Origin: Alphaproteobacteria bacterium
Lineage (GTDB): Bacteria > Pseudomonadota > Alphaproteobacteria > Micavibrionales > Micavibrionaceae
Direction: 5' to 3'
Assembly (NCBI GenBank): GCA_030426925.1
Contig: JAUHXT010000017.1
Coordinates: 1-34,029 of the forward strand
DNA: 34,029 bases
Shown: positions 2,186 through 9,052 of the stretch, in pieces
How positions within the stretch are numbered: the first letter of the stretch is position 1
Layout: each line of letters opens with the position of its first letter
Made by a program: the position numbers and the translations under genes
The notes under the pieces: model-generated
Told to the model about the DNA's origin: nothing
The model's database searches: none
The model's input: only the letters and a program-made list of their open reading frames with translations

Positions 2186-3442
2186 ATGCGGGCTGCGAAT
2201 GTATCTTTGGAATATGCCTACTTACGGGACCCCGAGAGCGGGTGGACCAGCCCACGCCCTGTGCGTGCATCTGATCTAAAGGCCGATATCATCGAAAAAT
2301 TACGCAGTGGCGATTTGCATGCTTTATGCCCGCATTGTCAGGACCAAAAGGGGCACCGTCACCGGTTAGGGTTTCGCGACGAGCATACACAGCCGATCAG
2401 CCGTGGGGTGCGTAATCCCGTGACATTGGAGATGGAAAATGCGGTGGCGCAGTTTTATTTTCCGCCGCGCTATTCCACCTGGCAGAATGAAGGTGAGCAC
2501 AAGTGTCATTTGAAAGCAGTGCTTGGCCGGTATGCACAGTTTGCCGGTAAGTATGCGAATGGCAGCGAACAAACAGAGGACGGACCGGTGCATGTTTTCA
2601 ATATCAATGTGCTGCGCGGCAACCGTCCGGCACGTCCGGCGTTGGCATCCGAGTTTCACCCGGCGGTGATTGCCGAAGACACGGATAAAATACCACGCCG
2701 TGCGGCGAAGCCCAGATCAAAAGGATTGAAAACAGTGGCGCAGTTTGCCGAGTTTATTGCGGCGGCAGACGATAACCTTGCGCTGATGTACACGGAACGT
2801 TTTCGCGACGGGCCGAAAATATACCAGCCGCGTGATGTCATTTTCACCGATGGTGATGTGGGTCTGTTCCAGCGGCTTCACGCCATTGCAGCGGAAGGGG
2901 AAAAGGCGCAGTTCACGGTTGCTTATTTTGAACCGCTGCCGCCACAGCTTTGGGGGAAATTCCGTACAGATAAATTCTCTATTCCTGGACGCGCCGCTGA
3001 AATGCGCGGCGATGGTGCGAGCGTCTATGTGGCGCAGATGCTGCGTTTTCCGACAGAAGCGCTTTATAAAGAAGCGCTGGCCATGATGACGGCACAAAGA
3101 CAGAGGGGACAGCCACAAAGATTGTTGATTGCCGCCGACCGTTCTATCAGCATGGCGGAGTATGATCGTAAGCTGAACGCTGTACGTACCAATGGCGGTA
3201 AAAGCACAGCAACGAAAAAGATTGAGGGAAAGGGGCAGGAGACACTTGATTTCGGAACTTCTGCTGGAGGGCAACAAGACAGGTCTGCGGATTGGCGGAC
3301 AGTGTGGATGCATTGCCCGGTAAATACACAAGCGCAGTTTATGCCTGCACCAACAGATGCACCGATACAGCGGCGTGCGGCGAATAATAACCGCCAACAA
3401 AACCAGCCGAACAGGCGTGAGCGTCAGCTCAGTCTTCTTTAA
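2186..3442 (+). CDS. Unrecognised 418-residue protein with a possible N-terminal zinc site
   Basis: I do not recognise this family. The start at 2186 is supported by AGGGGCAGGA at 2171-2180. The N-terminal 110 residues hold CPHC (48-51), a His/Arg-rich run (HRHR, 57-60), AQFYFPPRY (88-96) and EHKCHLK (104-110). The spacing of CxxC and H-x-C-H would fit one zinc-binding module. The middle (about 175-320) looks globular, with MTAQRQRGQPQRLLIAADR near the end. The last about 100 residues are low complexity, rich in N, Q and R, and probably disordered. The Cys pair followed by an aromatic/H-K-x-x-K segment faintly recalls CoiA-like proteins, but I cannot confirm this. It converges on hslU with a 6-bp gap. 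The ORF is long, has a good ribosome site and uses codons like its neighbours, so it is probably real. Confidence 0.7.
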   Translation: MRAANVSLEYAYLRDPESGWTSPRPVRASDLKADIIEKLRSGDLHALCPHCQDQKGHRHRLGFRDEHTQPISRGVRNPVTLEMENAVAQFYFPPRYSTWQNEGEHKCHLKAVLGRYAQFAGKYANGSEQTEDGPVHVFNINVLRGNRPARPALASEFHPAVIAEDTDKIPRRAAKPRSKGLKTVAQFAEFIAAADDNLALMYTERFRDGPKIYQPRDVIFTDGDVGLFQRLHAIAAEGEKAQFTVAYFEPLPPQLWGKFRTDKFSIPGRAAEMRGDGASVYVAQMLRFPTEALYKEALAMMTAQRQRGQPQRLLIAADRSISMAEYDRKLNAVRTNGGKSTATKKIEGKGQETLDFGTSAGGQQDRSADWRTVWMHCPVNTQAQFMPAPTDAPIQRRAANNNRQQNQPNRRERQLSLL

Positions 3443-3448
3443 CAAAAA

Positions 3449-4777
3449 TTACAGGATAAATTTACGCAGGTCGGCGTCTTCGGCAAGGTCGGACACGTTT
3501 TCCTTTACATCCTTTGCCGTGATTGTGATGCTTTCTCCGCCGCGATCGGACGCGGTATAGGAAATATCATCGAGCAGTTTTTCCATGACGGTTAGCAAGC
3601 GGCGGGCACCGATATTTTCGACCGTTTCGTTGACTTCAAACGATATGCGAGCGATTTCGTCGATGGCATCATCGTCAAATTCCAGATTTACTTCTTCTGT
3701 ACCAATTAATGCCTTATATTGTTTTATCAGGCAGGCGTCAGTTTCCACCAGAATCTTTTTGAAATCGTCTTGCGTCAGTGCGCGCAATGTTACACGGATG
3801 GGCAGGCGCCCCTGAAGTTCCGCTAACAGGTCGGAGGGCTTAGAGTAATGAAATGCGCCGGATGCGATAAACAGAATGTGATCGGTTTTGACCGTTCCGT
3901 ATTTTGTTGTAACGGTCGTCCCTTCGATCAAGGGCAGTAAATCACGCTGTACCCCTTCGCGGGAGACATCGCCGCCGCTACGGGCATCGTGGCCGTGGGC
4001 GATTTTGTCGATTTCATCCAGAAAGACAATGCCGTTTTGTTGTACCAGTTCCAATGCCTGCGCCACGACCTTGTCTTCATCCAGCAATTTATCGGATTCT
4101 TCGGTGACCAAAACGTCATAGCTTTCGGCGACAGTCATTTTTTTGCGTTTTTTCTTTTCCATGCTCTTGCCGAAGATATCGCCCATGGACACCATGCTCA
4201 TCGATGCGCCGGGCATGCCGGGAATGTCAAACATATTGCCCAGCGGATTGGAATTGTCCTGAACGTCGATTTCAATTTCCTTGTCGTTCAGTTCGCCGCC
4301 GCGCAAACGGTCGCGAAAGGATGCGCGGGTGGTTTCGCCCGCACCTTCGCCAACCAGTGCATCGAGCACGCGGTCTTCTGCATAGATTTCAGCCTGCGTC
4401 GTGACTGTGGTGCGCATTTTATCGCGTACCATATGCATGGCATTTTCCGTTAAATCGCGAATGATGGATTCGACATCCTTACCCACGTAGCCGACTTCGG
4501 TGAATTTTGTGGCTTCGACCTTGACGAACGGCGCCTGCGCCAGTTTTGCCAGGCGGCGTGCGATTTCGGTTTTCCCGACCCCTGTCGGGCCGATCATCAG
4601 GATATTCTTCGGGTAGACTTCTTCCTGTAACGCGGGATCAAGTTGCATACGGCGCCAGCGATTTCGTAAAGCAATGGCTACGGCGCGTTTTGCGTCGCTT
4701 TGCCCGATAATAAAACGGTCCAGTTCATGCACAATTTCACGCGGGGAAAAGGACGGAATGTTTATGGCGTCAGTCAT
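3449..4777 (-). CDS. hslU: ATP-dependent protease ATPase subunit HslU
   Basis: HslU is the hexameric AAA+ unfoldase that feeds proteins to the HslV peptidase in the cytoplasm. The 442-residue length matches the family. Visible features are the N-terminal start [16 protein letters not shown], Walker A GPTGVGKT at 63-70, the pore loop GYVG at 96-99, an I-domain insertion from about 108 to 240 containing a Met/Gly-rich stretch, and Walker B IVFLDEID at 250-257. The C-terminus ends LRKFIL, the conserved tail that inserts into HslV to open its pores. The gene is third in a leftward hslV - methyltransferase - hslU series, 45 bp after the methyltransferase stop. No strong Shine-Dalgarno precedes the ATG, but the N-terminus fits the family exactly. 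Confidence 0.98.
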
Positions 4778-4822
4778 AGAAGTGAGATGTAAGGCGCTTA
4801 CAGTGTTATTTCAACCCTTAAA

Positions 4823-5383
4823 TCATATGCGGTAGATATAGAGTTCTTTTTGATTTGGAGCCAATGTGCTGACATCTATAACTTCGCTGGGTTCATAGTC
4901 ACCGCCCAGCGGGAAGCGGTTGGCGGCGATGACGGCACCCGGTTTCAGCTCCTTAGAAAATTTTTCCCGTAATTCCGGCATAGAAGATCCGAGATGGAAT
5001 ATCGTGACGGCATTGGTGTCCGATAAATCGTAGTCGTAAAAGCTTTGCTGGAGGAAATCGGCATTTTTGATTTTTTTTACCGCGCGCCAGAACAAAGCTT
5101 TCCAGTGGGCGATGGCGTCAATTTCCAGCCCCGTGACTTTTGCGTTTGGGATGGATTCGGCCATCTGGCGGACAAAACCGCCATTGCCGCTACCCATATC
5201 GACGATTTCATAGGGTGCGTTGGCGGATTTTTCAGCTTCTGCGCTCAAGATTTCTATGATTTTCTTACGGATGGCCGGGGCGGTTGTGATGTTTGGTGTG
5301 CCCTTGTTCACCAGCAGGATGTATGCGTACCATAAAAGAACGTACAGGCAGAGCCAGTGCAAAATTTCATTGATAAGATCCAT
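4823..5383 (-). CDS. Membrane-anchored class I SAM methyltransferase, FAM173-like
   Basis: A 186-residue protein counted from the ATG at 5383, four bases after the hslV stop. An upstream in-frame ATG at 5437 would overlap hslV by 50 bp and seems less likely. Residues 8-25 (HWLCLYVLLWYAYILLVN) form one transmembrane segment. A Rossmann methyltransferase follows: motif I VDMGSGNGG at 61-69, acidic loop GLEID at 85-89, a helix with HWKALFWR, and ANRFPL at 154-159. A short TM helix plus a G-S-G-x-G motif and a late RFP segment resembles the FAM173 (ATPSCKMT-type) lysine methyltransferases; that is family recall, not a search. It lies between hslV and hslU and is probably cotranscribed with both. 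The substrate is unknown. Confidence 0.8.
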   Translation of the reverse strand: MDLINEILHWLCLYVLLWYAYILLVNKGTPNITTAPAIRKKIIEILSAEAEKSANAPYEIVDMGSGNGGFVRQMAESIPNAKVTGLEIDAIAHWKALFWRAVKKIKNADFLQQSFYDYDLSDTNAVTIFHLGSSMPELREKFSKELKPGAVIAANRFPLGGDYEPSEVIDVSTLAPNQKELYIYRI

Positions 5384-5387
5384 AAGT

Positions 5388-5909
5388 CTATAGCTTTTCC
5401 AGCGTGATGGTGTCGTTGGTGTAAACGCAGATATCACCAGCGATTTTTAATGCCTTTTGCGCAATTTCTTCCGCGCTTAAATTGTCCTGGTCGTACAGGG
5501 CGCGGGCGGCGGCCAGAGCGTAATTGCCGCCTGAACCGATGCCGATAATGCCGTCTTCGGGTTCCACAACATCGCCGGTGCCGGAGAGAATCAAAGACGT
5601 ATCCTTATTGCAAACGGCCATCAGGGCTTCCAGCTTGCGTAAATAGCGGTCGGTGCGCCAGTCCTTGGCCAGTTCAACACAGGCGCGGGTCAGTTGCCCC
5701 GGATGGGCTTCCAGCTTGGCTTCAAGACGTTCAAAGAGCGTGAAGGCGTCTGCCGTTGCCCCGGCAAATCCGGCGATGATGTCATTGTCCTTACCCAGGC
5801 GGCGGACTTTGCGGGCGTTGGCTTTGAGGACAGTCTGCCCCATGGAAACCTGCCCGTCGCCAGCGACGACGACCTGATCCCCTTTTCTGATTGCTACTAC
5901 GGTTGTCAT
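5388..5909 (-). CDS. hslV: ATP-dependent protease peptidase subunit HslV
   Basis: HslV is the threonine peptidase of the HslVU complex, a proteasome beta-type dodecamer. I chose the ATG at 5909 so that the protein begins [10 protein letters not shown]: removal of Met exposes Thr2, the catalytic nucleophile. It continues into the conserved [14 protein letters not shown]. This gives 173 residues, the usual length. Longer in-frame starts at 5921 and 5972 would add a short propeptide; none has a convincing Shine-Dalgarno. [16 protein letters not shown] near residues 120-135 is also typical. The gene heads the leftward hslV - methyltransferase - hslU run and is divergent from terC across 143 bp. 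Confidence 0.97.
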
Positions 5910-6052
5910 GCTTAATGACATGCATGCTATGGGGCGCGAGGTCAAGTCCCAAAGCCCGTTAAAACTTCGCAATCATCCTTTTCTATTTTCTAAAACCATC
6001 TAATATACATGGGAGAGGGTATCTCACTTGTTATTTCACCAAAGGGACAAAC

Positions 6053-7042
6053 ATGCTTGATTTGATGACCACAGACTTTGTCGGCCAGCCGTTATGGGTG
6101 TGGGGTACGTTTTTGGCCATTGTTGCAGTTATTCTATATGTCGACCTGGTGGTGTTTAACAAAAAAGACCATGTCATTGAATTTAACGAGTCGCTAAAGC
6201 TTTCCGCTATTTATATTGTGGTTGCGCTGATATTCGGGCTGTGGATCTGGTACGATATGGGGTCGGACGATGCGCTGAATTATTATACCGCCTATATTGT
6301 CGAAAAGAGCCTGTCGGTCGATAACCTTTTCGTTATATCGGTGATTTTTACGTATTTTGCCATTCCGCGGGAATTCGAACACAGGGTTTTGTTGTACGGA
6401 ATACTGGGTGTGCTGATCCTGCGCGGGGTTATGATTATTGCCGGCGCTGTTATCGTCCATGAATATGAATGGGTGCTGTTGTTGTTCGCTGCTATCCTGA
6501 TTTTCACCGGTATCAAGCTGGGCCTTAGCAAGGATGAAGAGGAAGAAAATATCGGCGATAAGTGGCTGGTTCGTTTTCTGACCAAAAACCTACCGTTTAC
6601 GCATAAATTCCACGGCCATAATTTCTGGGCGCGCGAACCGTCAACCAAAACCGGGAAAATGGTCTGGCATGCCACGCCATTGATGATGGCGCTGATTGTT
6701 ATCGAGCTGACCGATTTGTTGTTCGCGTTCGATTCCATTCCGGCGGTGCTGGCGATTACCACAGAGCCGTTCGTGGTGTTTACGTCCAATATTTTTGCCG
6801 TGATGGGATTGCGGGCGCTGTTTTTTGCCGTCGATGCGATTTTACACCGCTTCATTTACATGAAATATGCGCTGTCTATCATTCTTGTGTTTATCGGCCT
6901 GAAAGTCTTTTACGCGCATTTCTTCGACAAGGTGCCGCCGTATATTTCACTGGGTGTTACGATTGGCGTTCTGGCCGGCGGCATTATCCTGTCGATGATG
7001 AAGACCGGCGGGTTTTCCAAACCTAAATCCGATTCTCATTGA
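6053..7042 (+). CDS. TerC/Alx family integral membrane protein
   Basis: A 329-residue polytopic inner-membrane protein with about nine hydrophobic segments. TerC-family signatures are EKSLSVDN at 84-91 and ELTDLLFAFDSIPAV at 218-232, whose acidic residues lie within membrane helices and are thought to bind metal. A charged cytosolic loop (KDEEEENIGDK) lies at 160-170. Relatives include E. coli Alx and MntP-linked TerC proteins implicated in manganese export, metalation of exported proteins and tellurite resistance; the exact role cannot be read from sequence. AAAGGGA at 6041-6047 places the start. I looked for a yybP-ykoY manganese riboswitch in the 143-bp leader and did not see one. No ter operon genes lie nearby, so dedicated tellurite resistance is unlikely. 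Confidence 0.93.
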   Translation: MLDLMTTDFVGQPLWVWGTFLAIVAVILYVDLVVFNKKDHVIEFNESLKLSAIYIVVALIFGLWIWYDMGSDDALNYYTAYIVEKSLSVDNLFVISVIFTYFAIPREFEHRVLLYGILGVLILRGVMIIAGAVIVHEYEWVLLLFAAILIFTGIKLGLSKDEEEENIGDKWLVRFLTKNLPFTHKFHGHNFWAREPSTKTGKMVWHATPLMMALIVIELTDLLFAFDSIPAVLAITTEPFVVFTSNIFAVMGLRALFFAVDAILHRFIYMKYALSIILVFIGLKVFYAHFFDKVPPYISLGVTIGVLAGGIILSMMKTGGFSKPKSDSH

Positions 7043-7390: not shown

Positions 7391-9052
7391 TTATAGCACG
7401 CCCTTGGTGGACGGCAGGGCGTCGCCATCCTTGCGGATGGCTTGTCCCAGTGCGCGGGCGAACGCCTTAAAGCAGCCTTCGACCATGTGGTGAGTGTCTT
7501 CACCCTTTGCTGTGATGTGGATGGTCGCGCCCAGATTTTCACCAAGTGAGCGGAACACATGCGGGATGAGCGTGACGGGCAAGTCGCCGACATTGGCGTC
7601 AGGGAAATCGGCATCGAATTCCAGATGAAAACGGCCGGACAGGTCGATGGCCGCGGAGGCCAGCGTTTCATCCATCGGCACGGTGAAGCCGTAGCGACCG
7701 ATTCCTGCCTTGTCGCCCAGCGCTTCCTTTAACGCCTGACCGATGGCGATGGCGCAATCCTCCACCGTGTGGTGCGGGTCGATTTCGAGGTCGCCGTCAC
7801 AGTCCAGTTGCATGGAAAAGCCGCCATGTTTTGCCAGTTGGTCCAGCATGTGGTCGTAAAAGCCGATGCCGGTATTGATTTTAATCGGGGCCGTGCGGTC
7901 GAGATTTATTTTCACCGTAATTGCGGTTTCGTTGGTCTTGCGGATAATTTCGCCAACACGGCCGCCATTGCTGCGGGCAATGTTTTCGCCTTTGAAAACG
8001 GTCATCAGGTCATCCATCTGTTCCTTCGTGCCGATGGAAAAGCGTACGCAGCCGTCCATGTTTTTCTGGTAGGACTGGTCGCGTAAGACAAATCCGTTTG
8101 CTACGCAGCGTTTGATAATGTCGTCGGCATTTTTGAATTTTACAAAAAAGAAATTGGCTTGTGAGGGGAAAACGCGTTCAATGCTGTCAATTTTTTCCAT
8201 TTCTTTCGCGTAATGTTCGCGCATGGCGATGGTGTCTTTAATTTTCGCCTGTAATTTTTTGACGTTTTTATCGGACAGGATAGTCGCGACTGCCTGCGAT
8301 ACCGGAACGGGGGTCGGGTAAATCGCCAGAACCTTGCGCAAAAGCGCAATCACATCGGCGTTGGCAATCGCAACGCCACAGCGGATTCCTGCGGATGCGT
8401 AAGCTTTCGATAGACTGCGCAATACAACAAGGTTCGGGTACTGGTCGATTAAATCAATGCAGGATGGAATATCCGCGTATTCGTTATAAATTTCGTCCAG
8501 AACAACCAGTGCTTTGTCCTTCGCCGCTTTACAAATTTTTATGATGTCATCGCGTTCAATGATGTTTGCGGTCGGATTGTTTGGTGAACATAAAAATATC
8601 GCTTTCGTGTTGCCATCTATTGCGCTGATAACGCCGTCGATATTAACGTCAAAGTCAGGGGCGGGAAGCGGTACTTCTTTGACTGCCGTGTCCTGTAACA
8701 GCGCATAGTGCGCATACATCGGGAAGGTCGGCGGGCATATCACGATATTGTCCTCATGCGGTTCGCAAAAGGTGCGGATAATCACATCAATGGCTTCGTC
8801 CGCGCCGCGGGCGGCCATGATATTGCGGGAAGAAACATCGTAGATGCGGCACAGGGCGTCCATCATCGCCTTTGGCTGCTGGTCGGCATAGCGGGAATAG
8901 CCTTTCGCACCCACGAATGGTTCATAAGCACATTCGTTGGCATCGAGCAGGACCATATCGTCGTTGCTTTGCACCAGTGAGCGCGCGGACACGTATGGTT
9001 TCATGTCCAGTATGGTTTTACGGGCGCGGTTTATGATTGGCTGGTGGCTCAT
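7391..9052 (-). CDS. hisCB: Fused histidinol-phosphate aminotransferase (HisC) - imidazoleglycerol-phosphate dehydratase (HisB)
   Basis: One uninterrupted 553-residue ORF encodes two histidine enzymes. Residues 1-355 are a fold-type I PLP aminotransferase: SPNNPTAN 156-163, DEIYNEY 186-192 and LSKAY with the PLP lysine at 216. Residues about 360-553 are a complete IGP dehydratase: GFYDHMLD 397-404, HHTVEDCA 427-434, MDETLA 460-465 and HHMVEG 521-526, holding the manganese-binding His and Glu residues. The junction is near NIARSNGGRVGEI (357-369). Order in the pathway is dehydratase then aminotransferase, so the fusion joins consecutive steps. The HolPase domain of enterobacterial HisB is absent; hisN directly upstream supplies that activity. 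The ATG at 9052 lies inside the hisN 3' end (35-bp overlap), suggesting translational coupling. Confidence 0.95.
   Translation of the reverse strand: MSHQPIINRARKTILDMKPYVSARSLVQSNDDMVLLDANECAYEPFVGAKGYSRYADQQPKAMMDALCRIYDVSSRNIMAARGADEAIDVIIRTFCEPHEDNIVICPPTFPMYAHYALLQDTAVKEVPLPAPDFDVNIDGVISAIDGNTKAIFLCSPNNPTANIIERDDIIKICKAAKDKALVVLDEIYNEYADIPSCIDLIDQYPNLVVLRSLSKAYASAGIRCGVAIANADVIALLRKVLAIYPTPVPVSQAVATILSDKNVKKLQAKIKDTIAMREHYAKEMEKIDSIERVFPSQANFFFVKFKNADDIIKRCVANGFVLRDQSYQKNMDGCVRFSIGTKEQMDDLMTVFKGENIARSNGGRVGEIIRKTNETAITVKINLDRTAPIKINTGIGFYDHMLDQLAKHGGFSMQLDCDGDLEIDPHHTVEDCAIAIGQALKEALGDKAGIGRYGFTVPMDETLASAAIDLSGRFHLEFDADFPDANVGDLPVTLIPHVFRSLGENLGATIHITAKGEDTHHMVEGCFKAFARALGQAIRKDGDALPSTKGVL

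Follow-up and report, generated by a model that had tools for sequence, protein, structure and literature searches.

Genomic context of the methyltransferase gene

The window analysed here is a 34,029-nucleotide stretch of alphaproteobacterial DNA (contig JAUHXT010000017.1). On its minus strand, across positions 3449–5918, it carries the gene order hslV, MT, hslU, where MT encodes a membrane-anchored SAM methyltransferase of 186 amino acids. The three genes and the segments of the MT protein are listed below, with the evidence for each.

3449–4777, minus strand: hslU, downstream of MT (NCBIfam hslU, 599 bits, above cut-off)
4823–5383, minus strand: MT, membrane-anchored SAM methyltransferase, 186 aa (Pfam domain matches; pN/pS in relatives)
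5388–5918, minus strand: hslV, upstream of MT and in the same direction (NCBIfam HslV, 278–288 bits, above cut-off)
5306–5380, minus strand: MT codons 2–26, single N-terminal transmembrane helix (predicted helix; 19-residue KD hydropathy 2.07; charge −2 before and +2 after)
5213–5305, minus strand: MT codons 27–57, pre-MTase linker and helix with a G-x-P-N-I-x-T-A-P-A-I-R stretch (conservation across 21 sequences)
4826–5212, minus strand: MT codons 58–186, seven-strand-type SAM methyltransferase domain (Pfam, alignment, predicted structure, aKMT-like fold)

The hslV stop codon is followed after 4 nt by the MT start codon, and 45 nt separate MT from hslU. We place the MT start at the ATG at 5383 as it matches the start positions of relatives; an alternative GTG at 5437 would give a 204-residue protein and run into hslV. 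The original prediction had located the reading frame exactly (4823–5383, 4 nt past hslV). Its description of a SAM methyltransferase between hslV and hslU is also confirmed, since all three genes pass their Pfam or NCBIfam cut-offs, MT doing so for two Pfam models (Methyltransf_31 and Methyltransf_25). A promoter and terminator scan of positions 3300–6150 gave no clear excess over shuffled sequences (1 versus 3.1 and 5 versus 4.1), so the scan gives no support to shared transcription of hslV, MT and hslU.

MT is a real gene: 59 of the 142 genomes of the order have a match (its own genome included), and pN stays well under pS in each of three pairs of relatives compared (pN/pS 0.20/0.69, 0.14/0.70 and 0.13/0.63), which indicates purifying selection on the protein. 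Literature searches found nothing on this gene, or on any methyltransferase between hslV and hslU.

Domain organisation and membrane anchor

The structure predicted from the window protein and 17 relatives (mean pLDDT 89.7, pTM 0.78) comprises a helix at residues 2–26, a second helix at residues 36–52, and the methyltransferase domain from residue 58. The N-terminal helix reaches a 19-residue KD mean hydropathy of 2.07, so that both hydropathy and predicted structure back the single N-terminal transmembrane helix proposed originally. Across the 19 proteins measured, the N-terminal 19-residue stretch has a mean hydropathy of 1.65–2.76, with a net charge of zero or below before the hydrophobic stretch and of +2 to +5 after it. 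The positive-inside rule would put the catalytic domain on the cytoplasmic side.

Conservation across the 21 aligned sequences is concentrated in two regions. In the pre-MTase stretch, Gly28 and Pro30 are invariant, while Asn31, Thr34, Ala35, Ile38 and Arg39 are nearly so. The methyltransferase domain is marked by motif I (D62-x-G-x-G-x-G68), the acidic residue Glu87, and the stretch containing Asn155 and Phe157. The original prediction had drawn its family assignment from a G-S-G-N-G motif and a late RFP segment; motif I is indeed present, but within D-x-G-S-G-N-G only Asp62 and the glycines Gly64, Gly66 and Gly68 are invariant, and of the RFP segment only Phe157 is (nearly) conserved, together with the preceding, invariant Asn155.

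Relationship to aKMT and FAM173 enzymes

Sequence and structure searches converge on one characterised enzyme, the lysine methyltransferase aKMT of Sulfolobus islandicus. Among solved structures, phmmer with the single sequence ranked it first (5fa8, 8.3e-10), and a profile of 21 sequences and a wider profile strengthened the match to 1.1e-20 and 1.4e-29. Foldseek with the predicted MT structure also ranked aKMT first (6.2e-12, 26% identity). Structural comparison gave a Z-score of 21.4 over 148 residues at 1.9 Å, followed by 5bxy (Z-score 21.1) and then by unrelated enzymes at about 17. The best NCBIfam family for the window protein is the archaeal protein-lysine methyltransferase (NF041081), which matches all 21 aligned sequences; with 43.5 bits the window protein falls short of the curated equivalog cut-off of 200 bits, which makes MT a distant aKMT relative, not an equivalog.

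The likeness to aKMT (also aKMT4; PDB IDs: 5fa8, 5fad and 5jwj) spans the catalytic domain together with the preceding segment, with stretch 30–182 of the MT profile pairing with residues 6–156 of the aKMT chain at 26–28% identity. The two differ at the N-terminus, as the 161-residue aKMT chain starts at the pre-MTase segment and has no space for a membrane helix. aKMT is a soluble enzyme of broad specificity.

The mitochondrial enzymes FAM173B (ATPSc-KMT) and FAM173A (ANT-KMT) are, by published report, membrane-anchored proteins of the inner membrane that act on membrane substrates. Passages of PMC9006661 and PMC10238732 describe both as resembling aKMT or archaeal KMTs and as having alphaproteobacterial homologues, and in those passages no bacterial substrate is named for these homologues. 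The domain order outlined for FAM173B in part of PMC9006661 (putative transmembrane segment, pre-MTase, MTase) is the order we see in MT: helix 2–26, linker with helix 36–52, then the domain from residue 58. Asp62, invariant in the 21 sequences, would correspond by motif position to the human motif I aspartate, given as D94 in a passage of PMC5828452. The structure search that the original prediction had proposed thus places MT closest to aKMT, a relative of FAM173A/B according to these reviews, and the guess of a FAM173-type enzyme agrees with MT in fold and anatomy, FAM173 itself being compared here through published descriptions.

Distribution of MT and its subfamilies

The named homologue loci belong to Micavibrio-type and unclassified alphaproteobacterial MAGs. 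A tree of 38 hand-chosen rows (24 A and 14 B), in which the deep forks inside subfamily A are unresolved, splits the matches in the order into two clades with 100/100 support: A, which includes the window protein, and B. Subfamily A (MT-A) occurs in 21 genomes of the order, and the class-wide search added one further A-like protein (L190, in G242). At an E-value of 1e-6, the class-wide profile search matched 169 of 385 genomes, with a tail of ordinary methyltransferases; at 1e-20 or better there were 36 of 385, as counted from the listing.

Subfamily B proteins also have an N-terminal hydrophobic stretch and the same methyltransferase domain, but they form a separate clade, mostly carry a GSGWGG-type motif I, and have another linker instead of GVPNIRTAPAIR. 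The genome from which the window derives contains a second homologue, of subfamily B, on another contig (G000:C63:1149–1625; L028 and L038), with 32% identity in the match.

Micavibrio-like Alphaproteobacteria carry MT-A as an accessory gene, and it has come to lie in differing neighbourhoods. Six of its 24 rows lie between hslV and hslU, and the rest adjoin various genes, with no common neighbour outside close relatives. This was also the pattern in the 17 MT-A loci inspected outside hslVU, where neighbours were common only to a few close relatives. In one genome (G084), MT lies between genes that, by eye, we take to encode the large and small subunits of acetolactate synthase.

The hslV–hslU gap is a variable site

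Of the 142 genomes of the order, 94 gave an hslV match and 91 an hslU match. The 48 genomes with no hslV match and the 51 with no hslU match include some that are near complete, which suggests repeated loss of the HslVU protease in the order.

Our survey of the intervening gap covered 79 hslV–hslU pairs on the same contig and strand; it excluded three contigs with opposite-strand genes and 13 hslV genes whose contig has no hslU. The original statement that the two genes are usually adjacent holds for 51 of the 79 pairs (gap below 250 nt), but gaps of 278–3751 nt occur in 27, and in the one remaining pair the genes are far apart and in the other order. MT occupies six of the 27 long gaps (G000, G023, G036, G060, G065 and G069). 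In seven others the cargo is a single TerC gene or a pair of them, on the opposite strand, and the remaining 14 hold, among others, an acyltransferase, a histone-deacetylase-like gene and open reading frames with no Pfam match. This usually tight gene pair therefore has a variable site in 27 of the 79 pairs (L087–L112), with varied and mostly unrelated cargo.

The linkage recurs beyond the window genome, being found in six of the 142 genomes, which represent four genera of a single family. One of these (G036) shows breaks in hslV, MT and hslU, and we take them for sequencing error; its contig title gives low coverage. Another (G023) encodes a 426-residue protein with weak methyltransferase similarity between MT and hslU (L108:1240–2517).

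Association of MT with HslVU

The original prediction had also suggested that MT might modify the protease beside which it is encoded. The distribution speaks against a functional tie. In nine of the 21 genomes with MT-A, neither hslV nor hslU was detected at the thresholds used (G050, G090, G095 and G129–G134), and five of the nine are at least 96% complete, so MT-A does not keep to genomes with both genes as an HslVU-dedicated factor would. Among the 12 MT-A genomes that do have hslV, six carry MT elsewhere. The linkage is neither order-wide (six of 79 pairs, in one family) nor class-wide, as no hslV or hslU was present within the examined flanks of the 19 class-level loci inspected.

On the tree, the linked label needs three changes, yet the data do not reject a single clade of the six linked copies (p-AU 0.175, or 0.255 when L051, the unlinked copy of G067, is included). 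One old insertion with subsequent losses is thus possible, as are a few insertions, and under a single origin with long retention, selection could have kept the gene linked to hslVU. As a control we applied the same search to clpP and clpX, comparing genomes with both genes on one contig from the listing rather than by a full count. The two genes were more than 95 kb apart in seven genomes (G034, G029, G023, G010, G003, G022 and G077) and close in G041, so that gene order looks loose across the order.

The linkage is real, but it is limited to one family and is weak as evidence of shared function, and the placement of MT seems to reflect genomic drift, not cooperation with the protease. More generally, where a lineage rearranges quickly, close spacing within an operon says little about shared function.

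Co-occurrence with the ATP synthase c subunit

ATP synthase was examined as the source of a candidate substrate. A PF00137 match was present in all 43 genomes searched, comprising the 21 MT-A genomes and 22 with no homologue, the latter hand-chosen from the 83 such genomes of the order. We take the lysine of an RNPxxK motif (ARNPxxK in the human loop) to occupy the Lys43 position. With the second c-like protein of G134 left out of the count, this lysine was found in two of the 21 MT-A genomes (G000 and G067) and in six of the 22 with no homologue (G004, G005, G007, G034, G061 and G072), a trend opposite to that expected if AtpE were the substrate. We therefore rejected AtpE as a general substrate of MT, and the suggestion of the original prediction in this direction did not hold up in this comparison. 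MT-A thus departs from the FAM173 enzymes in that co-distribution lends no support to an ATP synthase substrate. Methylation of the c subunit is possible in the window genome itself, where MT-A and the RNPxxK lysine occur together.

Within the family, the AtpE loci (L144–L187) encode two main kinds of c subunit, one with RNPxxK and an IEALGIIPIG-like segment, the other with a GRNPxxxxLLDKK-like segment and TEALAIFAL.

Interpretation

Taken together, MT is a real, selected, accessory membrane methyltransferase of the aKMT/FAM173-like kind, and is probably specific for protein lysines. The explanation that we favour, with somewhat better than even confidence in it as a whole, is that of an accessory single-pass membrane lysine methyltransferase with a membrane-near protein substrate other than HslVU. 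With its catalytic domain in the cytoplasm, such an enzyme would use SAM to methylate lysine side chains on a protein that sits at the inner membrane or close by, an activity modelled on its fold relatives aKMT and, by published report, FAM173A/B. In the one family where MT occupies the hslV–hslU gap, its close spacing would probably let it share the expression of hslV, and HslVU would not be its substrate despite this position.

The shared fold does not in itself have the power to show the substrate of MT. An enzyme of the same fold might instead methylate an RNA, lipid or small-molecule target at the membrane, and many RNA and small-molecule methyltransferases do match the MT family at lower scores; 5bxy, one of the three best structures, is moreover labelled an RNA methyltransferase. 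That label is the depositor's name, however, and the clearly best match among characterised enzymes, in sequence and in fold, is a lysine methyltransferase, so we consider this alternative rather unlikely. That MT corresponds in bacteria to ATPSc-KMT, with the c subunit as its target, is very unlikely: the domain order is that given for FAM173B in part of PMC9006661, and the corresponding lysine is present in the c subunit encoded by this genome (ARNPEAK), but that lysine is scarcer among MT-A carriers than among the non-carriers compared. Most improbable of all, in our judgement, is that MT owes its operon position to modifying HslV or HslU, or to regulating the protease. Its presence between the two genes in six genomes of four genera, and a single clade of linked copies that is not rejected, would fit such a role; against this stand the MT-A genomes with no detectable hslVU, the hslV-bearing genomes that keep MT elsewhere, and the other cargo that fills the gap in 21 further genomes. 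HslVU was accordingly set aside as the best reading of the substrate.

Returning to a membrane-near lysine methyltransferase as the preferred reading, one extension of it, which we regard as quite improbable, is that MT-A is the present-day alphaproteobacterial counterpart of the FAM173 ancestor, methylating inner-membrane proteins from a cytoplasmic site, along with the c-ring where AtpE has the presumed Lys43 lysine. MT is ordinary in kind, yet as a compact membrane-anchored candidate from a defined family it offers a useful bacterial model for the mitochondrial FAM173 enzymes and makes the origin of mitochondrial membrane-protein methylation testable in bacteria.

Other genes near the locus

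A TerC-family gene (Pfam, 2.5e-45) lies at 6053–7042 of the window, divergent from hslV. At 7391–9052, a 553-residue open reading frame appears by eye to be a fusion of HisC-like (histidinol-phosphate aminotransferase) and HisB-like (imidazoleglycerol-phosphate dehydratase) parts, and it adjoins reading frames that, again by eye, are presumably hisN-, hisD- and hisH-like.
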